This document shows positions 191 through 18,425 of a stretch of 64,000 nt of DNA, one piece after another. The translations under genes and the position numbers were made by a program. Numbering within the stretch: position 1 is the stretch's first letter; the number at the start of each line of letters is the position of its first letter. Below the pieces are notes generated by a model. It saw only the letters and a program-made list of their open reading frames with translations. It did no database searches and was not told the origin of the DNA. This DNA is from Bacteroidota bacterium (GTDB lineage Bacteria > Bacteroidota > Bacteroidia > UKL13-3), in contig CANNQU010000002.1 of assembly GCA_947507965.1 (NCBI GenBank), positions 1 through 64,000 of the forward strand, read 5' to 3'.

Positions 191-817
191 GTGTTATATA
201 GAATAATTAATACCCCAAAGGCAACCATCTATCTATGGCATATAACAGAAAATGCTACAGAACTTGGATTACTCCTCGCCCCTTTCAAAGACTTAGCACT
301 GCATGGAATAGAGCAGCATACCGGTCAAAAATTATGGCATAACACCCATTTCCTTAGTACTCGTATTTTAGTGTTTAAATATGCCGCCTTAGGGTCGCCC
401 ATACTAAAGAATGAGTTTGGCAAGCCTTTCCTATTCGAAAATAATATTTCGATTACGCACTCCAATGACTTCACTGCGATTATAGTAAGCCATGATAGCC
501 GGGTAGCTATCGACCTCGAAAAAATTGATACTCGCATTCTACGTGTTGCTCATAAATTTATAAACGAAAAAGAAATATTCTTCGACAACCAAGAAAATAC
601 CACTTATAATACCCTCATTTGGAGCGCTAAAGAAACCATGTACAAACTTTATAGTGCCAACGAAGTTATCTTCAAAGAAGAACTCTTAATTCACCCATTC
701 ACCTATACGAAGAGCGGAAAATTTATTGGCGATATTCTAAAGAATCCTTCCATATTAAATATTGAATTATTTTATTTCACCTTCGAAAATTACGTTTTAA
801 CGTGGTGCGAACAATAA
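191..817 (+). CDS. 4'-phosphopantetheinyl transferase superfamily protein
   Basis: This 208-aa protein has the Sfp/AcpS-superfamily signatures. An SITHS segment lies near residue 87, the Mg-binding motif AIDLE has D108 and E110, and the WSAKETMYK motif spans about 144-152 with the conserved W, K, E and K. Such enzymes move the phosphopantetheine arm of coenzyme A onto a serine of an acyl or peptidyl carrier protein. The length is that of single-domain Sfp-like enzymes. It starts with GTG one base after the preceding ABC gene. Whether it serves fatty-acid ACP or a secondary-metabolite carrier cannot be decided here; no synthase genes are visible nearby. Confidence 0.88.
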   Translation: MLYRIINTPKATIYLWHITENATELGLLLAPFKDLALHGIEQHTGQKLWHNTHFLSTRILVFKYAALGSPILKNEFGKPFLFENNISITHSNDFTAIIVSHDSRVAIDLEKIDTRILRVAHKFINEKEIFFDNQENTTYNTLIWSAKETMYKLYSANEVIFKEELLIHPFTYTKSGKFIGDILKNPSILNIELFYFTFENYVLTWCEQ

Positions 818-3891: not shown

Positions 3892-4002
3892 TTTGAAGCA
3901 CATAATTGTTTTCAAACCTTCAACAACGTTGCCTAAAGTATAACGTGTCGTAATCCATTTTGAAAATTCTTTTCTTTTTTCCAATAATTCAATGGTAATT
4001 TT

Positions 4003-4010
4003 TATATTTG
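4003..4010 (+). promoter_or_regulatory. Candidate -7 promoter element of the barrel-protein triplet
   Basis: TATATTTG matches the Bacteroidota -7 consensus TAnnTTTG and lies 29 bases before the ATG at 4040. No convincing -33 TTG is present at the usual spacing. A start site near 4015 would give a short A/T-rich leader. Confidence 0.5.
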
Positions 4011-4039
4011 AAGTTAAATATCCAATTTCTAGTCTCATC

Positions 4040-4777
4040 ATGAAAAAACTACTCTCCTTCATAATTTTACTTTTAACCTTAGTACCGTTAGTTGCACAAC
4101 AAGAAAAACCCAATACGGTAAAACTTAACTTTTACGGTTTTTTATTTAGAACCGTCTCGCTTCAATACGAAAGAACCCTAAATGATAACTCCGCTGCTCT
4201 AGTGCATTTTGGCTATACCCTTCCACGTTCGCTACCCAAGTCGTTGTTTTCTATCGACACGCTAACGAACAATGGTAGCATCAATCAGGTGTCGAGTGCG
4301 AAATTTACCGGTGGAATTCAAATTACTCCGGAGTATCGCTATTATTTTAAAGGAGAGGGCAATAAGGGTTTTTATTTGGGAGCCTATCTCCGTTACGCCA
4401 ACTATGGCATTTCTGCATTAGCGCTGCACCGAGATGATAGCTTCTCCATGACAAAGACCTACCAATACACAGGTACCTGGAAATCAATGAATATTGGACT
4501 TATCATGGGAAATCAATGGCAGTTAGGTGAGAATTTAACGCTTGATTGGTGGATTTTAGGCTTACAATTTGGGACTAACAAAATAAGCATGACAGCTGCC
4601 GGCGATTTTAGCAGCACGAATAAATCTGAATATATCGCCGATGTAACTGCCAATTTTAAAGACACGAAATTTCTAGGAGGACTCGAAGCTGGCATGACCA
4701 ATACGGAGGCCACCTTAAAATTCGGGTTTCCATCGCCTGGATTAAGAACCGGATTGTGCCTTGGTTTTCGTTTCTAA
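4040..4777 (+). CDS. Outer-membrane beta-barrel protein, paralog 1 of 3
   Basis: This 245-aa protein has a signal peptide ending near AQQ and then alternating hydrophobic/polar strands typical of a small beta-barrel. It ends in GFRF with the terminal phenylalanine needed for outer-membrane assembly. It resembles the DUF3575-like Bacteroidota barrels, with an early VKLNFYGFLFRTVSLQYER block. The start at 4040 was chosen over an upstream ATG at 3992 because only it puts the signal peptide at the N-terminus. It shares three blocks with the next two genes: the SxQYER strand, QITPEYRYYFK, and the RTGLCLGFRF end. Function is unknown. Confidence 0.8.
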   Translation: MKKLLSFIILLLTLVPLVAQQEKPNTVKLNFYGFLFRTVSLQYERTLNDNSAALVHFGYTLPRSLPKSLFSIDTLTNNGSINQVSSAKFTGGIQITPEYRYYFKGEGNKGFYLGAYLRYANYGISALALHRDDSFSMTKTYQYTGTWKSMNIGLIMGNQWQLGENLTLDWWILGLQFGTNKISMTAAGDFSSTNKSEYIADVTANFKDTKFLGGLEAGMTNTEATLKFGFPSPGLRTGLCLGFRF

Positions 4778-4783
4778 TTTGCG

Positions 4784-5527
4784 TTGAAAATCACATTGAA
4801 AAAATGGATTCTGTTGCTTGGCATTGGCTTGGGTTACCATACGCTACCATCTCAAAGGCAAGATGCAAGGCATTCCTTAAAAGTCAACCTTTTCTCACCT
4901 TGGGTTAAAACGATTTCAGTTCAATATGAATATTCATTTAGCGCGAAAAAAAGCGTGCTTTGCCAAGCTGGATATTCGATGCCCAACTATTTATTAGAAA
5001 AATATTACGATCAATATAAATCGTTTGGAAGCAGAAAAATAATTTTCAAAGATTTTCGATTTAATGGGGGAATGCAAATATCTCCCGAATATCGTTATTA
5101 TTTTAAAGCGAAACAAAATTCAGGTTTCTTTATGGGTACCTATCTCCGATATGCTCACTATACCATTCAATCGCATGTTAATTATTCAGGAGAAACATTC
5201 AATATTGCATTTACTTTTAAAGGCACTTATTCATCTGCCAATATAGGCATCATATCAGGATACAAATGGTTGGTAGGTGAGCACTTTATTATTGAGTCGT
5301 GGTTGCTTTGCCTACATGGGGGCACCAATCGATTTCTATTGAATGCAAAGGATGAACTCGAACTCGTAGATAAACCTACTTTTCTATTGGATTTAGAAAA
5401 TGCTTTAACCGATTTTCAATGGGTGCGTAAATGGGCTTCCAATATTACCGATAGAAACATTAATATTGGGTTTGGCTATTCCTTCGTTGGCACTCGTGCC
5501 GGGCTCTGTTTAGGCTATCGATTTTAA
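4784..5527 (+). CDS. Outer-membrane beta-barrel protein, paralog 2 of 3
   Basis: This 247-aa secreted barrel protein begins at a TTG six bases after the first paralog stops, so translation is probably linked. It has a signal peptide, an ISVQYEYSFS strand, a QISPEYRYYFK block, a GTYLRYAHY strand, and ends in GLCLGYRF. The middle of the protein is more diverged than the shared blocks, as expected for surface loops. I see no catalytic motif. Duplication of one ancestral barrel gene is the simplest reading of the triplet. Confidence 0.78.
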   Translation: MKITLKKWILLLGIGLGYHTLPSQRQDARHSLKVNLFSPWVKTISVQYEYSFSAKKSVLCQAGYSMPNYLLEKYYDQYKSFGSRKIIFKDFRFNGGMQISPEYRYYFKAKQNSGFFMGTYLRYAHYTIQSHVNYSGETFNIAFTFKGTYSSANIGIISGYKWLVGEHFIIESWLLCLHGGTNRFLLNAKDELELVDKPTFLLDLENALTDFQWVRKWASNITDRNINIGFGYSFVGTRAGLCLGYRF

Positions 5528-5537
5528 TACTATTTAT

Positions 5538-6311
5538 ATGAAACCATCTACCACCCTACTCTTCTTGATACTCTTTTTTTTAGCATCAGAAGCTACTCCA
5601 CCTCAACCCTTAGGATTAATTAGAGCCGACCCGAAGAATGTTCTTAAAATAAACTTAGTGCCACTACTTTTTAAAACCTATTCGATACAATACGAAAGAA
5701 CCATTTTTAGAAATTTTTCAATTGGTGTGCAAGGAGGTTATAACTCAGAACTACGATTGGGTACCTATATCAATAAAGTACTCGATACCGTTTCCAATGC
5801 GCGCTTGATGGCGGTAAGGGCAAAAGTAACGATGACCGAGTTATCAACCTCCGGCAATGTGTACTTTACCCCAGAAATACGCCTCTACCTAAGTCGAAAA
5901 GGTGCTCCCAATGGGTTCTATATTGCCCCATATTTACGCTTTTCTACCACCAACGTTAATTCAACTTTAATTTATAAAGACAGCAATAACAACAACATCC
6001 CCATTCTCTTTACTGGACGTATGACCAGCATACACCCCGGAGTACTTTTGGGCTATCAGAAATCTATTTTGAAAAGACTGGTCGTTGATTTCTGGCTTGG
6101 AGGCATACAATTTGGAAGCTCGAAAGCCACTTTTGATGCGGAGGCCGATTTTAAAAAATTGGACCAACAAGGATTTATCGATTTTGTACACGATAACTTC
6201 AAGTATGGTAGTTCAACGTTAACCATTGCTAACGATGCGCATGCACAAATGCAATACACGGGAAAATCGAGTGGTTTTAGAATAGGATTATGTGTTGGCT
6301 TTAGATTCTAA
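5538..6311 (+). CDS. Outer-membrane beta-barrel protein, paralog 3 of 3
   Basis: The last of the three tandem barrels, 257 aa, starts ten bases after the second. The N-terminus is a signal peptide (hydrophobic run to about residue 20). The YSIQYERTIF strand, the YFTPEIRLYLS block and the RIGLCVGFRF terminus align with its two neighbours. The central part is the longest and most diverged of the three. It probably belongs to one transcript with them. No ligand or partner is indicated by nearby genes; coaD follows on the opposite strand. Confidence 0.78.
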   Translation: MKPSTTLLFLILFFLASEATPPQPLGLIRADPKNVLKINLVPLLFKTYSIQYERTIFRNFSIGVQGGYNSELRLGTYINKVLDTVSNARLMAVRAKVTMTELSTSGNVYFTPEIRLYLSRKGAPNGFYIAPYLRFSTTNVNSTLIYKDSNNNNIPILFTGRMTSIHPGVLLGYQKSILKRLVVDFWLGGIQFGSSKATFDAEADFKKLDQQGFIDFVHDNFKYGSSTLTIANDAHAQMQYTGKSSGFRIGLCVGFRF

Positions 6312-12418: not shown

Positions 12419-12799
12419 CTAAATCAAGTTCTTCAAAACTTCAATTTCCAGTGGTTTATTCAAAATTGACTCCACCCATTTATTCTCATTTGCATTGGAA
12501 AAGTCGGCCTCATTCATGGTAGCCGAAAGCAGAAAAACTTTGAATGGCAAAACAGAGTACGTTTTTTCGAGCTCATCTACAATTTGAAACCCATCTAATC
12601 TAGGCATAATAAGATCAAGTAAGATCACTTGAGGGAGTAAATGAGCATTACCTCGATTATCTTTTAAAAATTCAAGCGCTTCCAGTGCATTTGAAAAGGA
12701 AGTAACAGAACAGTCGTTAAAAGCGTTTTGCAGCAATCGCTCGTTTACCATTAAATCAATTGGGTTATCATCGATAAGTAAAAATTTTAGCTGTGTCAT
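12419..12799 (-). CDS. Stand-alone response regulator receiver protein
   Basis: A single receiver (CheY-like) domain of 126 aa with no output domain. The acidic pocket is at DD in LLIDDNPID, the phospho-acceptor aspartate is in ILLDLIMPRLDG, the conserved threonine/serine position is LLSAT, and the lysine is in LNKPL. It overlaps the stop of the upstream kinase gene by four bases (ATGA), so the two are translationally coupled and it is likely a phosphorylation partner of one of the two kinases in the operon. Last gene of a five-gene unit. Confidence 0.9.
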   Translation of the reverse strand: MTQLKFLLIDDNPIDLMVNERLLQNAFNDCSVTSFSNALEALEFLKDNRGNAHLLPQVILLDLIMPRLDGFQIVDELEKTYSVLPFKVFLLSATMNEADFSNANENKWVESILNKPLEIEVLKNLI

Positions 12800-13890
12800 T
12801 TTTTCATCGGGTTATTTAAAAGTTTTATATTAAATGTAGTGCCTATTTCTTTTTGTGATGATAAGGTTATTTCTCCCCCCAACTTTTCCACCGTTTCTTT
12901 TACGATAAAAAGTCCGATACCGGTACCCGAACGAGGATGAAGCGAGCGATAAAACATATTGAATAACTTCTTTTGTTCCACCTCATCGATACCGATTCCA
13001 TTATCACTTACAATAAGTGTTGCTTCGGTATCATTTAACGTAAAGTCGATATTTATTTCCGATGGGGTACCATCATTTTTTTGGAATTTAATGGCATTGG
13101 TAATAAGGTTCGACATTATCATCTTAATTCTGGTAAGGTCGGAAATAAATCGCTGAGAGCTATCAATACGTACGTTATAGATTACATCTTTTGCTCCTTC
13201 AATAAACTTAAATGAAGCGATAATATCGTCGACAATTTTCTTTAAATCGACCTCTTGGAAATCCAATTCTATACCCGCATTCTTGTAAAATCCAATTAGG
13301 TTTTTCACAAAACCATCCAAATGAATTACTGACGATTCGATTAAATTGAAATAGTTTCGCAGATCTTTTAGTTCACTATCCAATCGTGAAACCTTTACAA
13401 TACCTAAGATATTGGTGAGAGGAGAACGCATCTCGTGTGATGCACTGTAGGTGAACCGTGTAAGGGCATCATTAGACTTCTGTAATTCGGCATTACGTGT
13501 TTTGAGAAGCTGTTTTGAGTTATAGAGCTCCATCGCATTTTCAAGTGAAACATGCACGATGGTTTCATTCCAAGGTTTTTCAATAAAACAAGAAATGCCC
13601 GATTTGTTTATGGCATATTCCAATACCTCTTTATCGGCAAATCCGGTAAGTAAAACTCGGATGCAATCGGGGTTAATCGTTTTTACGTTTTCAAGAAAGG
13701 TGATACCTCTTTGCTCTGGCATGCGCTCATCAGAAATCACAATAGGGATATCCTTATGTTCGTGAAGTATATCATATGCCCCAGAAACCGTAACCGAGGT
13801 AAGAACTTCATACTTTGTTCTTAACAGTGATGAGAAAATAGTTAAATTTTGGTGCTCATCATCTACATATAGAATTTTTGGTTTAATCAT
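12796..13890 (-). CDS. Receiver-histidine kinase hybrid protein
   Basis: This 364-aa cytoplasmic protein starts with a receiver domain (about 1-120: ILYVDDEHQN, VISDERMPEQRG with the phospho-acceptor, EKPW with the lysine). A linker coiled coil and a HisKA domain follow, with the phospho-accepting histidine in SASHEMRSPLTNI. The C-terminal ATPase has the N box NLITNAIKFQ, G1 DNGIGID and G2 GTGIGLFI. With no sensor or membrane span it probably relays signals from another kinase. It begins one base after the preceding 703-aa kinase gene ends. Confidence 0.93.
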   Translation of the reverse strand: MIKPKILYVDDEHQNLTIFSSLLRTKYEVLTSVTVSGAYDILHEHKDIPIVISDERMPEQRGITFLENVKTINPDCIRVLLTGFADKEVLEYAINKSGISCFIEKPWNETIVHVSLENAMELYNSKQLLKTRNAELQKSNDALTRFTYSASHEMRSPLTNILGIVKVSRLDSELKDLRNYFNLIESSVIHLDGFVKNLIGFYKNAGIELDFQEVDLKKIVDDIIASFKFIEGAKDVIYNVRIDSSQRFISDLTRIKMIMSNLITNAIKFQKNDGTPSEINIDFTLNDTEATLIVSDNGIGIDEVEQKKLFNMFYRSLHPRSGTGIGLFIVKETVEKLGGEITLSSQKEIGTTFNIKLLNNPMKK

Positions 13891-13891
13891 A

Positions 13892-16003
13892 TTACTTTTG
13901 GATTGGTAGTTTCAGTATAAATTCGGCCCCTTCTCCTGCGATACTATTTACAACGATTTCACCTTTATGGTCTTTCATAATACCATAGGATATTGACAAT
14001 CCCAATCCGGTACCTTTTCCTACTTCTTTTGTTGTATAAAATGGGTCAAATATTTTCTCGTTTTCTTCTTTAGGAATTCCTATTCCATTATCTTTAATTG
14101 AAATATGAATGGTATCGTCTTTCAGAAACGTTGTAATGGTTATCGTTTTCTGTTTTTTGGGACTACTTTGAACGGCATGAACGGCATTCGACAAAATATT
14201 TAGAAACACCTGATTTAATTTTCCAGGAGAGCAATCCAAAAAGGGAATTGTTTGATAATCCCGTATCACCGTTATTTGATCCTTAATTTGGGTGTTTAAT
14301 AAGGTAAGCGTATTCTCAATACCGTCAATTAAGTCGGCATTTTTCATAATATGTTCATCGGAGCGAGAGAATTTCTGCAGACCTCTCACGATATTTGCGG
14401 TACGCAATGCACCCTCTTCAATACCATCGAGCAGCATATTAATTTCCTCTACAATAAATGGGGTATCTAGTTTCTCCTTCATTAATTCTATCTCCCCGAA
14501 TCTCTTGGCCGTCAGACCATCACCTTTTAACGTATCATATTCATTTAATAAGTGCAAAATGTCACTGATATCACGTTTCAGAGGAGAGACGCTTGCCGAA
14601 ACAAAATTAATTGGGTTATTAATTTCATGTGCAATGCCTGCCGTTAGCAAGCCCAATGAAGACATCTTCTCACGGTTTACCAATTCCACTTCCGAACGTT
14701 TTAATTCGTGCAATGCTGACTGCAACTCTTGGGTACGAGTTTTCACTTCAGCGTCCAAAATGACATTCTGTTCTAATACCAATCTTTCATTTTCTTCCGA
14801 TGCTTCTAATGCCATCAATTGGGATGCCTCTTTCTCCTTCTTCATAATATTGATTCGGTTAGCCAAAGCAAAGGAAATGAGTACTAACTCAATAGCAGAA
14901 CCTGCCGGTAGTGTATATAGCGAGAATGCATTGTAGGGGATAAGATTATAGTCTTTACCTACAAAAATTATAACGCCTAATAAGAAAGCGAGCCAGGCGA
15001 TAAGAAAATATCGAGCCGAAGCGACCTTATTTCTCAATGCAATGATACCTGTAATGATAGCAACCACTGCACCACCTCCACCGATCACCTGCAACATATA
15101 GTAGCCTAAAATGTATTGATGAAATACAGTAGCCAAAGGAATACAAAGAACATAACCCACAATTAGAAAATCGATAATACGGTTAAGCTTCGGAACCACC
15201 TGCTTTGTATTCAGAAAATCCTTCATAAAAAAGGCAATAGAAATACCAGAGAGGCTACTAAAAATATACGTTGCATTATGTTGAAGCCAAATAAAATTAG
15301 GCCACAAAAATTTAAAGGCATAACCCAACAAGGAAACTTGGGTAATACCAATTGTTATTACATAAGCAACATAATACAAATAGGCTCTATCCCGAATACT
15401 AAAATACAGGAACAAGTTATACAAAAACATCACCAAAACAATCCCTAAATAAAGCGCTATTAACGATTCTCCATCGATATTCTTGTTTATAATATCATCA
15501 TAAGTTCCTATATATAATGGCAATTGTTGTTGCTCATGGTTTCTTACTTTCAGGTAATACTCAGCAGAAGATTGCGACGAAATACTGAGTTTAAAAATGA
15601 AGGATGGAAACCTATATTCACGACCACTAAACGACCTTTCATCACCCATCTGCTTAACCGAGAATGTGCCATCCCTATTTTTAGAATAGAGCTCAATTTC
15701 ATCGGAGAGAGGTTGCGCCACTTCAAGCAATAAGTCGGGTTGATCGGAGTTATTAAAAACAGTGAAATGCAGCCAGAAAGAAGAATTTGTTAAACCAAAA
15801 TTTGCAACATCCTTTTCATGGGATTTAAATATGGCGGAAACACTAATTTCCTCGATTTTCTTGGAATCCGTTTTGTCTTCAAAATATTCGATACTTTTCC
15901 CTATCAGTATCGGCTTGCTGTTATTACTAAAAACTACTGGTTCTATCGAAAATAAAGGAGATAATTTCAATAGTAACAGCAGCAGTACAATTATTTGTTT
16001 CAT
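13892..16003 (-). CDS. 7TMR-DISM sensor histidine kinase
   Basis: A 703-aa membrane kinase. After a signal peptide comes an extracytoplasmic beta-sandwich of the 7TMR-DISMED2 type (about residues 20-175; a FWLHFTVFN strand is characteristic), then seven transmembrane helices (about 180-385), a coiled coil, and a kinase core. The H box is GIAHEINNPINFV, the N box NILSNAVHAV, G1 DNGIGIP, F box DPFYTT and G2 GTGLGLSI. DISM sensors are thought to bind carbohydrate-like or small ligands outside the cell. It lies in one operon with a ThiF-like protein, an acyltransferase and two receiver proteins. Confidence 0.93.
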   Translation of the reverse strand: MKQIIVLLLLLLKLSPLFSIEPVVFSNNSKPILIGKSIEYFEDKTDSKKIEEISVSAIFKSHEKDVANFGLTNSSFWLHFTVFNNSDQPDLLLEVAQPLSDEIELYSKNRDGTFSVKQMGDERSFSGREYRFPSFIFKLSISSQSSAEYYLKVRNHEQQQLPLYIGTYDDIINKNIDGESLIALYLGIVLVMFLYNLFLYFSIRDRAYLYYVAYVITIGITQVSLLGYAFKFLWPNFIWLQHNATYIFSSLSGISIAFFMKDFLNTKQVVPKLNRIIDFLIVGYVLCIPLATVFHQYILGYYMLQVIGGGGAVVAIITGIIALRNKVASARYFLIAWLAFLLGVIIFVGKDYNLIPYNAFSLYTLPAGSAIELVLISFALANRINIMKKEKEASQLMALEASEENERLVLEQNVILDAEVKTRTQELQSALHELKRSEVELVNREKMSSLGLLTAGIAHEINNPINFVSASVSPLKRDISDILHLLNEYDTLKGDGLTAKRFGEIELMKEKLDTPFIVEEINMLLDGIEEGALRTANIVRGLQKFSRSDEHIMKNADLIDGIENTLTLLNTQIKDQITVIRDYQTIPFLDCSPGKLNQVFLNILSNAVHAVQSSPKKQKTITITTFLKDDTIHISIKDNGIGIPKEENEKIFDPFYTTKEVGKGTGLGLSISYGIMKDHKGEIVVNSIAGEGAEFILKLPIQK

Positions 16004-16029
16004 TATTTTGAATCGAATTTTTATTACTT

Positions 16030-16731
16030 CTACAAGACAAAAGGACGAACATTTATTATTTCCAGATCGTATTCCAATTCCAGCTCCAACGTATTGGCGT
16101 GAATTTTCTTCGCTAATCTTCTGTTTCCTCTTAATTCAAGCATCTCGGTTTTATACTGGATGGTGGACGCCACCAAGGTGATACAATTCATTCTTAAAAC
16201 ACGTGCAACAAAATTTGAGTTTGGATACGTAAACTCCCCATTATTTCCAACACTCTTATCCACTTCAAAGCCTAAACGTCTCGCTCCTGCTAAGGTATAT
16301 CCGGCAACAATAGCAAATAAGTTTTTAATGTTTAGCTGATCACAAATTGACACTGCGGCAATGGATAACAGCACCGTTATTCCCAAATTAGGAGGAAGCT
16401 TTCTGGAGTTCCATAATCCGCATAGCTCCCCTACACCATCCTCCAATCGATACTTATTTACCTGCTTATGAATATTCGCATCAAAATGACCCACCGCGTC
16501 TTCAACCGGTAAAGGAAAATCTCCATCTGCAATCTGAACCCTAATTCCCCCTATCAACTCTCCTTGATACTCACCAACCACCACATAGGTATCGGGGTGA
16601 ACAATCCACAAGGGGGTATTGGTTGAAATGTTCTCCAAATTAAATTCTTCTAAAACCTTCCGGTGCCCCTCCAAAAACCTAGCACAGGTTTGGGGTTCAT
16701 CAATAGCCCGAAAAGCTCGAATAGTTATCAT
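16030..16731 (-). CDS. GNAT-like N-acyltransferase
   Basis: This 233-aa protein looks like a GNAT-fold acyltransferase. It opens with a strand and helix (MITIRAFRAIDEP), has a central VVGEYQGELIGGIRVQI strand pair that matches the GNAT core, and later GELCGLWNSRKLPPNLGITVLLSIA and AGYTLAGARRLGFEVD, which resemble the acyl-CoA-binding and C-terminal parts. The pyrophosphate loop Q/RxxGxG/A is not canonical, so the family call is moderate. Similar proteins include acyl-homoserine-lactone-synthase-like and N-acyl-amino-acid-synthase enzymes, but the substrate is unknown. It sits 78 bases after the ThiF-like gene and 26 bases before the DISM kinase. Confidence 0.55.
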   Translation of the reverse strand: MITIRAFRAIDEPQTCARFLEGHRKVLEEFNLENISTNTPLWIVHPDTYVVVGEYQGELIGGIRVQIADGDFPLPVEDAVGHFDANIHKQVNKYRLEDGVGELCGLWNSRKLPPNLGITVLLSIAAVSICDQLNIKNLFAIVAGYTLAGARRLGFEVDKSVGNNGEFTYPNSNFVARVLRMNCITLVASTIQYKTEMLELRGNRRLAKKIHANTLELELEYDLEIINVRPFVL

Positions 16732-16809
16732 CTATATATTTTTTGTAAATTACTTATTGAAAAACAAACATTTAAGAAATCACCATAACACCATATCGCT
16801 TCACTTTTA

Positions 16810-17925
16810 TTATTCTTTTCCTATTAATTGTTCAATATCAAAATAAAACCTCCCCGAAACATGGGTTAAGTTCAATAGAATACGGCGAACGACATCGGTG
16901 CTTGCTCCTCCTCCAAGAACCACCGCTGATGCTAATTGCGGCCAAGCCGATAACGTCTTCCCAAGTTCCCCTACCGACTCCTTTAAACGTAAAGAAACAT
17001 TTTCACCACTTACCATAGGATACATATAGGCCATCTTCTGCTGTGGTGATAAATCCTTTAAATTAGTTAAATCCAAGTGGTCTAACTTTCCTTGAAACAT
17101 CTTCAAATCGGGTTCCAAATCAAATCGTTCAACATCAATCATGCATCGGTCGCTCATTTCCATAACTACAGGAATAGCGTATTGTTTTGCCTTCACTCTC
17201 GTTAGCACCTTAATTTCAACGCTATCACATTCTTCAACAATTAAATCTAATTTACCATCCTTCGTCATGAAGTCATCGATATTTTCATCGGTTATTCCGT
17301 CCATAAAACAAACGACCTTTAAAAAGGGGTCAAGTTCTGCTATTTCACGTGCCGTTATTACCGCTTTCGAAAGACCTAGATTATATACTGGGGTACGTAT
17401 TCTGTTGCAGTTGGTTAAATCCAAGGTGTCGAAATCGGCCAGCCGAATCTCTCCAAAACATCGTTCCATTGCCATCGTAACCGAAACCGATTGTCCTACT
17501 GACAAGCCAATGACACCCACCTTTTTGGTAGCCAGTAAATTTTGCTCTTCTCTTGTAATCTTATTTTTATTGCGATTTGTTCGTACTTCAATAAATTCGT
17601 CTTCATCCAGGATATGAACTAACTTATTACACCATGGATAATACACCCAAACGCCATATTCATCGATATTCAACAAGCCAATATGCTGTAATTTATGCTC
17701 GTTAATTTGCGCCTCCGATAGCTTATGCGAAGGATTTCTAAGCTTTATTAGATCACATAATTGGCTCTCTATTTCATCGTGAATAATTATTTCACTATGA
17801 GATTGAATTAGTCGGTCGAGATAGAACAAATCGTCTTCGTTGGCAATACGAAAAAACAAAGGGGTATGAATTTTCGAGGATTTATTGCTTTTATCTATGG
17901 AAGTACTATATTTGTGTTGTAACAT
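16810..17925 (-). CDS. ThiF/E1-like adenylating-fold protein
   Basis: The C-terminal two thirds of this 371-aa protein form an E1/ThiF Rossmann domain. A glycine-rich loop VGVIGLSVGQS begins near residue 135, and the D-x-D...N-x-x-R signature appears as ADFDTLDLTNCNRIR. ThiF-family enzymes adenylate a C-terminal glycine or another carboxylate. No conserved CxxC zinc pairs or clear catalytic cysteine are visible. The N-terminal ~130 residues are a separate unrecognised domain. It resembles, from memory, the Rv1355c-type ThiF proteins, which often carry a fused nitroreductase domain; that domain is absent here. First gene of the five-gene operon. Confidence 0.78.
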   Translation of the reverse strand: MLQHKYSTSIDKSNKSSKIHTPLFFRIANEDDLFYLDRLIQSHSEIIIHDEIESQLCDLIKLRNPSHKLSEAQINEHKLQHIGLLNIDEYGVWVYYPWCNKLVHILDEDEFIEVRTNRNKNKITREEQNLLATKKVGVIGLSVGQSVSVTMAMERCFGEIRLADFDTLDLTNCNRIRTPVYNLGLSKAVITAREIAELDPFLKVVCFMDGITDENIDDFMTKDGKLDLIVEECDSVEIKVLTRVKAKQYAIPVVMEMSDRCMIDVERFDLEPDLKMFQGKLDHLDLTNLKDLSPQQKMAYMYPMVSGENVSLRLKESVGELGKTLSAWPQLASAVVLGGGASTDVVRRILLNLTHVSGRFYFDIEQLIGKE

Positions 17926-17939
17926 TGCTTATTAAAAAG

Positions 17940-17947
17940 CAAATATA
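17940..17947 (-). promoter_or_regulatory. Candidate -7 element of the ThiF-kinase operon
   Basis: On the minus strand TATATTTG matches TAnnTTTG and ends 14 bases before the ATG of the ThiF-like gene. The divergent receiver gene starts at 17979, so both promoters must share this 53-base gap. Confidence 0.5.
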
Positions 17948-17978
17948 GTATAATTTGAATTGAAATAACGACCCTTTT

Positions 17979-18425
17979 ATGAGCGAAAAACCAAAAATAC
18001 AGGTGCTTTATGTGGATGACGAAAAGAATAATTTAATTTCCTTTAAGGCCAATTTCCGTATCGATTTTGATGTTTTCATTGCTGAATCGGCCGACGAGGG
18101 ACGCGAAATTTTACATAAGCGAAAAATAAATATTATTATTACAGATCAGCGAATGCCCATTAAGTCGGGAGTCGAATTTCTGGAGGAAATAATGCATGAT
18201 TTCCCTGACCCGGTAAGAATTTTACTTACCGGATATACCGATATGGAAACGGTTATTGAGGCGGTAAACAAAGGAAAAATATTCCAATACGTGCGTAAAC
18301 CTTATATCGCAGAAGATTTAAAAAAACTTATTTACGATGCTTTTCAGACCTATGAATCCACTCAAAAAATCAGACGTGATAACGAGCAATATGAATTTAT
18401 TTTGAGGCAGAAGTTACTTTCTTAA
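17979..18425 (+). CDS. Response regulator receiver protein
   Basis: A 148-aa protein with one receiver domain followed by a short helical tail. The acidic pair is in VLYVDDEKN, the phospho-acceptor aspartate in IITDQRMPIKSG, the threonine in LLTGYTD and the lysine in VRKPY. The domain is most like the receiver of the hybrid kinase at 12796-13890 (both have the VLLTG/ILLTG and DxRMP signatures typical of RpfG/HD-GYP-type receivers), but no output domain follows. It is transcribed away from the ThiF-kinase operon with 53 bases between the two starts. Confidence 0.9.
   Translation: MSEKPKIQVLYVDDEKNNLISFKANFRIDFDVFIAESADEGREILHKRKINIIITDQRMPIKSGVEFLEEIMHDFPDPVRILLTGYTDMETVIEAVNKGKIFQYVRKPYIAEDLKKLIYDAFQTYESTQKIRRDNEQYEFILRQKLLS

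Follow-up and report, generated by a model that had tools for sequence, protein, structure and literature searches.

A conserved acyltransferase, ThiF-type cyclase and 7TMR-DISM kinase cassette of Bacteroidota as a candidate system for making and sensing N-acyl amino acid derivatives

An operon in which two putative biosynthetic enzymes are encoded together with a sensor kinase, a second kinase and lone receivers raises the question of whether the relay reads the product of the enzymes or controls its synthesis. The first-pass annotation of the window, by which we mean the whole 64,000-nucleotide stretch of Bacteroidota DNA that was analysed, had left both possibilities standing: it suggested a phosphorelay that controls or reads an adenylation/acylation product, perhaps a small signal. 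This suggestion fits all of our findings, and published homologues now allow the class of product to be named (PMC12856293, PMC10404671); between the two possibilities, covariation favours reading over controlling, as opposed to proving it. Our preferred reading, in which we place a little more than even confidence, is that the cassette combines a signal synthase with a receptor relay of the autoinducer type, where the chemistry is deduced from homology and the role as receptor is argued from linkage, module swapping and covariation.

Gene content and surroundings of the locus

ORF calls place five genes in a minus-strand operon (12419-17925), in the order ThiF, GNAT, 7TMR-DISM kinase, REC-kinase and REC (Table 1). 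The intergenic gaps are 78 bp between ThiF and GNAT, 26 bp between GNAT and the DISM kinase, 1 bp between the DISM kinase and the hybrid kinase, and -4 bp between the hybrid kinase and REC1, while 53 bp separate the ThiF operon from the divergent lone receiver REC2. All six ORFs lie where the first-pass annotation had put them, in the same arrangement, and Pfam confirms the assigned domains except for that of the GNAT. Pfam likewise bears out its statement that the receivers are without an output domain, since all three REC domains match Response_reg and no DNA-binding or enzymatic output domain was found on any of them. The operon contains neither a transporter nor a known output gene. The phosphorylation residues of REC1 are preserved in its relatives, and the closest NCBIfam receiver to REC2 (REC part only) is NF053512 (1.4e-36), the REC of NosR-family c-di-GMP phosphodiesterases.

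Table 1. Features of the cassette and its divergent receiver, with positions in the window
Feature	Position	Strand	Basis and remarks
ThiF/E1-like adenylating cyclase (predicted), 371 aa	16810-17925	-	Pfam ThiF 4.8e-15; NCBIfam NF005901 2.5e-133; standalone, without flavin-oxidase (nitroreductase-type) domain
Putative GNAT-fold N-acyl amino acid synthase, TrzA/FeeM/LuxI-like, 233 aa	16030-16731	-	AlphaFold model, Foldseek and profile
7TMR-DISM sensor histidine kinase, 703 aa	13892-16003	-	DISMED2 outer domain, 7TM, long helix, HisKA and HATPase_c
Receiver-HisKA-HATPase hybrid, 364 aa	12796-13890	-	Pfam REC 7.8e-13, HisKA 1.1e-07, HATPase 2.8e-24; SHEMRSP H-box; 4-bp frame overlap with REC1
Lone receiver REC1, 126 aa	12419-12799	-	Pfam Response_reg 7.9e-14 alone; no output domain
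Divergent lone receiver REC2, 148 aa	17979-18425	+	Pfam Response_reg 2.7e-16; no output domain
Shared divergent promoter region of operon and REC2, 53 bp	17926-17978	.	Position from ORF calls

Promoter and terminator scans gave a signal no higher than that of shuffled sequence, and no promoter was identified in the shared divergent region. A search for RNA families near the locus returned nothing apart from one tRNA-Leu. The flanks hold nothing unusual: one has tRNA-Leu and the genes for trigger factor, ClpP and ClpX, the other that for an RpoD-type sigma factor (proteins named by inspection). Elsewhere in the window, three tandem paralogues of ~250 aa (3992-6311, plus strand) have signal-peptide-like starts and a common C-terminal motif of the GLCLGFRF type and are probably outer-membrane or secreted proteins; at 191-817 (plus strand), a protein resembles, by eye, a 4'-phosphopantetheinyl transferase.

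Predicted chemistry of the two enzymes

Related enzymes have been characterised in actinobacteria and proteobacteria. Rv1356c is TrzA, an N-acyltransferase that acylates L-tryptophan, and Rv1355c is TrzS, in which a flavin oxidase is fused to a cyclase that acts on N-acyl-tryptophan and depends on ATP; TrzS cyclises with ATP, a step that needs D217, the Asp in the ThiF adenylation motif, and then desaturates by means of its oxidase domain (PMC12856293). In M. tuberculosis, TyzA/TyzB/TyzC provide the acyltransferase, cyclase and oxidase activities for tyrazolones, and OxzA/OxzB of Pseudoalteromonas rubra, which are grouped with them, yield acyl tyrazolones/phenazolones (PMC10404671).

The window ThiF matches the Rv1355c family, NCBIfam NF005901, with 446 bits; the curated cut-off, 476 bits, was set for the whole fused protein. 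The match spans profile positions 3-340 of 722, which is the cyclase half alone and agrees with the absence of a nitroreductase domain remarked on in the first-pass annotation. The protein is 40-46% identical to Rv1355c-family and ThiF proteins encoded on actinobacterial plasmids. Eight of its residues (G140, D164, D166, N172, N174, R175, K187 and D234) are invariant among 34 relatives and are those expected for ATP/Mg binding in ThiF/MoeB-type enzymes, and together with the family match they point to an ATP-dependent cyclase of the TrzS/TyzB/OxzB group with an intact adenylation site. From the numbering, rather than from an alignment, we infer that D217 of TrzS is the Asp of the EECD motif and corresponds to D234 of the window ThiF. 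The nearest solved structure is that of the tRNA t6A dehydratase TcdA. TcdA, itself E1-like, activates a carboxylate and then closes a ring. On a Streptomyces plasmid (L195:5914-7712), a standalone ThiF of the same family adjoins a GNAT that the profile does not assign to the TrzA/FeeM type.

With the window GNAT, single-sequence searches of PDB, Pfam and NCBIfam returned nothing useful, and a profile search of PDB gave marginal GNATs only. Because these sequence searches were weak, we used structure prediction. The AlphaFold model, built from 69 sequences (pLDDT 93.3, pTM 0.91), has a GNAT fold of the FeeM/AHL-synthase type, as the first-pass call of a GNAT-like acyltransferase would lead one to expect despite the lack of a Pfam match. 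Foldseek placed FeeM (2g0b) and the AHL synthases BjaI, EsaI, MesI and RpaI ahead of any other GNAT, and FeeM and BjaI are also the closest structures of TyzA (PMC10404671). Furthermore, the GNAT profile matches, with 28 bits, the protein encoded beside an Rv1355c-family gene (TrzS) on Rhodococcus plasmids. These results suggest that the gene adjacent to the cyclase encodes an amino acid N-acyltransferase of the FeeM/TyzA/TrzA fold.

In the proposed pathway, the GNAT would acylate an amino acid at its amino group, with acyl-CoA or acyl-ACP as donor; the ThiF protein would then use ATP to adenylate the carboxylate of the resulting N-acyl amino acid, and ring closure through the amide oxygen would give a 5-oxazolone. 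Given the homology to TrzA/TrzS, TyzA/TyzB and OxzA/OxzB and the conserved catalytic residues, we consider acylation followed by ATP-driven activation/cyclisation of an amino acid quite probable. We file the locus as apparent cyclase-acyltransferase kin rather than as a proven oxazolone producer.

The nature of the product depends in part on the flavin oxidase (FDO). Searches with PF00881 and with a profile of the fused domain found this oxidase, fused or adjacent, neither in the window protein nor in the locus or the genome. Because PF00881 alone detects this oxidase type poorly (only 0.00097 for L170), the absence was rechecked with our own profile and positive controls. With no flavin oxidase in the genome, the product is predicted to be an N-acyl amino acid cyclised to a saturated oxazolone, or a related activated N-acyl amino acid; it would stay saturated or serve as a further reactive intermediate, and relatives with a fused oxidase would desaturate it. 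The oxidase domain is present on 71 of the 99 ThiF proteins in our tree and in 54 of the 77 ThiF-bearing loci of the full-context set described below.

It is possible, and we hold it as a minority view, that the end product of ThiF here is not an oxazolone at all, the N-acyl amino acid being activated instead for an amide or ester, a lactone, or transfer to protein or lipid, with the relay reading that product. This alternative overlaps with the synthase-receptor reading on the role of the receptor and differs on the product. It gains from the finding that none of 15 further genomes with a standalone ThiF has such an oxidase elsewhere, when the same profile found both positive-control genomes, and from the at least five gains or losses of the oxidase that well supported branches force on the ThiF tree; in addition, stieleriacine producers have ThiF genes, yet oxazolone was not seen (PMC12479983). 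However, TrzS cyclises before it desaturates, and when its oxidase is impaired the cyclised, saturated intermediate is seen and released; therefore, a cyclase needs no oxidase to make a saturated oxazolone (PMC12856293).

Linkage of the cassette and its exchangeable enzymes

Among 247 genomes of the class, ThiF is present in 43 and GNAT in 46, and both occur in 41, compared to ~8 expected from these frequencies. The two genes lie within ~2.5 kb of each other in 38 of the 41 genomes and at contig ends in two more. In the one true separation, genome G213, a ThiF-oxidase is located elsewhere and the GNAT, kinases and receivers are still together (L088, L089). A phylum-wide draw of 296 genomes contained the GNAT in 12, a search of the GTDB representatives with the GNAT alignment gave 290 relatives, and the viral contigs searched held no relative.

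For the neighbourhood survey, we used a full-context set of 80 distinct Bacteroidota loci with at least 5.5 kb on both sides. ORF calling missed genes in high-GC loci, and tblastn recovered the cassette in L074, L081 and L085. The first-pass annotation had proposed checking the ThiF-like and GNAT genes for co-occurrence with DISM kinases, and we found a DISM kinase on the GNAT strand in 79 of the 80 loci (78 by ORF calling and the 79th, L074, by tblastn), that is, a stable linkage of the synthase gene to a candidate receptor kinase. In L098, the sole locus without it, the GNAT is just 22% identical. The kinase was used in no locus-collecting query, so its presence is unselected; how often ThiF accompanies the GNAT in this set depends in part on how the loci were collected, and for this reason the whole-genome counts are given above. 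ThiF was found in 77 of the 80 loci, the hybrid kinase in 69, and a divergent lone REC directly upstream in 68, and the gap between GNAT and DISM kinase has a median of 2 bp across loci. The linkage holds although the genome of the window encodes just two DISM proteins in all. Scattering of the genes in relatives, named by the first-pass annotation as the observation that would speak against it, was looked for and not seen, because the cassette genes stay together across ~30 family- or higher-level groups. We conclude that the arrangement is far beyond chance.

Outside Bacteroidota, linkage was viewed in plasmid records only. Four actinobacterial plasmid loci have the synthase without a kinase directly beside it, and two of them have a GGDEF protein instead. 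These loci count against a receptor role for the kinase, since the molecules cannot need this receptor everywhere. The Rhodococcus plasmid loci with TrzA/TrzS beside a GGDEF protein (L193:3714-7962 and L194:3829-7977) compare with rv1354c in M. tuberculosis, where trzAS adjoins c-di-GMP genes (PMC12856293), and show a second, unrelated signalling partner.

The tailoring enzyme, by contrast with the rest of the cassette, can be exchanged. The ThiF slot is occupied by a SAM methyltransferase of 254-255 aa in L108, L109/L189, L110 and L112, and by an FAD_binding_4 oxidase in L185 and L192. The GNAT and the DISM kinase are retained in these loci, as the lone REC usually is, and the replacement sits between the same GNAT and DISM kinase. 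Because the tailoring enzyme is swapped while the rest stays, the constant core consists of acyl synthase, DISM kinase and receiver. By analogy, the methyltransferase variant would be compatible with N-acyl alanine methyl esters, which are a known natural product class (PMC11580390). In L170, ThiF, oxidase and GNAT are fused in a single protein of 1006 aa.

The sensor kinase as candidate receptor

In Pfam, the DISM kinase matches DISM_7TM (5.9e-51) and DISMED2 (4.7e-32). Its HisKA domain scores under the cut-off (20.3 vs 26.9 bits), but the H-box, AHEINNP, is present, and with a DISMED outer domain, a DISM 7TM region, and HisKA and HATPase domains bearing H, N and G boxes the protein is a 7TMR-DISM histidine kinase. 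An AlphaFold model of residues 1-410 (pLDDT 91) shows a beta-sandwich, then membrane helices and a long signalling helix. For the modelled outer domain, the RetS sensor domain (2xbz/3jyb) was the only convincing match, and carbohydrate-binding modules matched weakly.

Pairwise distances over 86 loci gave correlations of r=0.63 between 7TM and GNAT and r=0.51 between 7TM and ThiF, compared with 0.28 between the 7TM region and its own kinase core; the kinase core and the hybrid kinase correlated with r=0.64 (68 loci). Partial correlations controlled for kinase divergence ranged from 0.30 to 0.59, and 0 of 999 permutations were as high. With tree distances for 28 loci thinned to <60% GNAT identity, the ordering was the same (7TM-ThiF 0.55, 7TM-GNAT 0.52, 7TM-kinase core 0.33, kinase core-hybrid kinase 0.70), and the 5-95% range of the difference over subsamples stayed above zero. 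The sensor, meaning the 7TM and outer domains, co-varies more with the enzymes than with its own catalytic core, in a comparison whose matrix tests are inflated by shared descent and whose top-value genes are also neighbours, so that block transfer could give the same pattern. The pattern fits a ligand-matching block joined to a phosphotransfer block.

Under the synthase-receptor reading, the 7TMR-DISM kinase would bind the product in its 7TM or outer domain, with a resulting change in autokinase activity, and phosphate would be handed on to the lone receivers, to the REC domain of the second kinase, or to both; as none of these carries a DNA-binding or enzymatic output, they would act on other proteins in trans. 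Such a relay to lone receivers is likely in outline, with the hybrid kinase as its presumed second step. That the DISM kinase senses the product is suggested by linkage, module swapping and covariation, and we regard this part of the reading as evenly balanced.

The chief rival holds that the relay senses an outside cue, such as a sugar, envelope stress or an antibiotic, and merely controls synthesis by setting the amount of N-acyl amino acid or oxazolone, the product being a membrane lipid, antibiotic or stress metabolite rather than the ligand. Because the modelled DISMED2 domain resembles the RetS sensor and, weakly, sugar-binding modules, the primary ligand could be a sugar; sub-inhibitory antibiotics, moreover, increase oxazolone output in proteobacteria, for which the authors favour a stress role (PMC12856293). 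We nevertheless think this rival unlikely. With receivers that have no DNA-binding output, it is not evident how they would control the operon directly; the sensor domains co-vary with the enzymes above the kinase core; and the kinase is retained although the tailoring enzyme changes.

A role in protein conjugation or anti-phage defence, with ThiF as the E1-like enzyme of a bacterial ubiquitin-like or CBASS system, is very improbable and was dropped: PADLOC matches to E1-E2 models are weak (best 2e-06), as is common for ThiF folds, the Rv1355c family matches far better (2.5e-133), the operon is without an E2, JAB or ubiquitin-like gene, and the candidate Cys233 is not invariant, being Ser in 4 of 34 relatives. 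Accidental adjacency of unrelated genes, whose probability we take to be negligible, found no support in the neighbourhood survey and is refuted by it, GNAT-DISM order and strand being kept in the same 79 loci and ~30 groups.

LuxM-LuxN, AinS-AinR, CqsA-CqsS and LqsA-LqsS are autoinducer synthases beside multi-TM sensor kinases, and the window resembles them in encoding a putative small-molecule synthase beside a polytopic histidine kinase and receivers. It is unlike them in its kinase family, 7TMR-DISM, in its synthase families and in its predicted ligand. RetS, LadS and SagS of Pseudomonas share the DISMED2, 7TM and kinase architecture but have another output chain than the window kinase. 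To our knowledge, RetS, LadS and SagS have no link to an acyl-amino-acid synthase.

TrzA/TrzS of mycobacteria and Rhodococcus combine, like the window, a GNAT N-acyltransferase with a ThiF cyclase of the same NCBIfam family; unlike them, the window ThiF is without the oxidase, and its operon further encodes a 7TMR-DISM kinase and a receiver-kinase, with lone receivers besides. TyzA/TyzB/TyzC and OxzA/OxzB have the same three activities, and TyzA, like the modelled window GNAT, best matches FeeM and BjaI, but they belong to a different ThiF subcluster of the published network, and the accessible part of PMC10404671 does not mention kinase linkage. FeeM and the N-acyl tyrosine clusters for stieleriacine, thalassotalic acid and kyonggic acid similarly combine an N-acyl amino acid synthase with tailoring genes, namely ThiF, nitroreductase and, in some cases, methyltransferase; in contrast to the window cassette, the stieleriacine-type clusters are treated as metabolite clusters, and the terms 'histidine kinase' and 'response regulator' are absent from the text (PMC12479983). 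In Streptomyces scabies, a ThiF-nitroreductase ORF is co-transcribed with the coronafacoyl regulator (PMC4380410).

The enzyme chemistry is already known from mycobacteria, Rhodococcus and Pseudoalteromonas, and the two oxazolone papers describe the neighbouring genes as oxidase and acyltransferase genes (PMC12856293, PMC10404671). The more recent of them (PMC12856293, 2025) describes what oxazolones do physiologically as "a major unresolved question" and raises signalling solely as a structural analogy; its main text contains none of the terms 'histidine kinase', 'sensor' or 'two-component'. Our full-text literature searches, with subscription papers and supplements outside their scope and a prior mention therefore possible, returned no report of the synthase-kinase link.

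We tentatively propose, at somewhat below even confidence, that N-acyl amino acid derivatives (oxazolones and methylated or oxidised variants) are an autoinducer family of Bacteroidota. Each would be the product of a synthase resembling LuxI/FeeM and of a tailoring enzyme that can be exchanged, and a co-evolving 7TMR-DISM relay would detect it. If true, this would be a quorum-sensing type of its own in Bacteroidota, would give them a LuxI-like signalling system and would assign oxazolones a physiological role, in cell-to-cell signalling. For heterocycles derived from N-acyl amino acids, the cassette also offers a first family of candidate receptors. Its conserved pairing of synthase and kinase makes the question of the role of oxazolones directly testable, as it occurs in culturable Pedobacter, Mucilaginibacter and Sphingobacterium, and the swapped tailoring enzymes predict which strains make which chemical variant.

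Two cassettes are of more elaborate composition. In L154 (2358-5465), ThiF-oxidase and GNAT are separated by genes for a methyltransferase, a glycosyltransferase of family 2 and an NAD-dependent epimerase, which may either decorate the product further or have been inserted recently. Tandem GNAT paralogues, two in one cassette, occur in L117 (8225-9675) and may make two different acyl amino acids.
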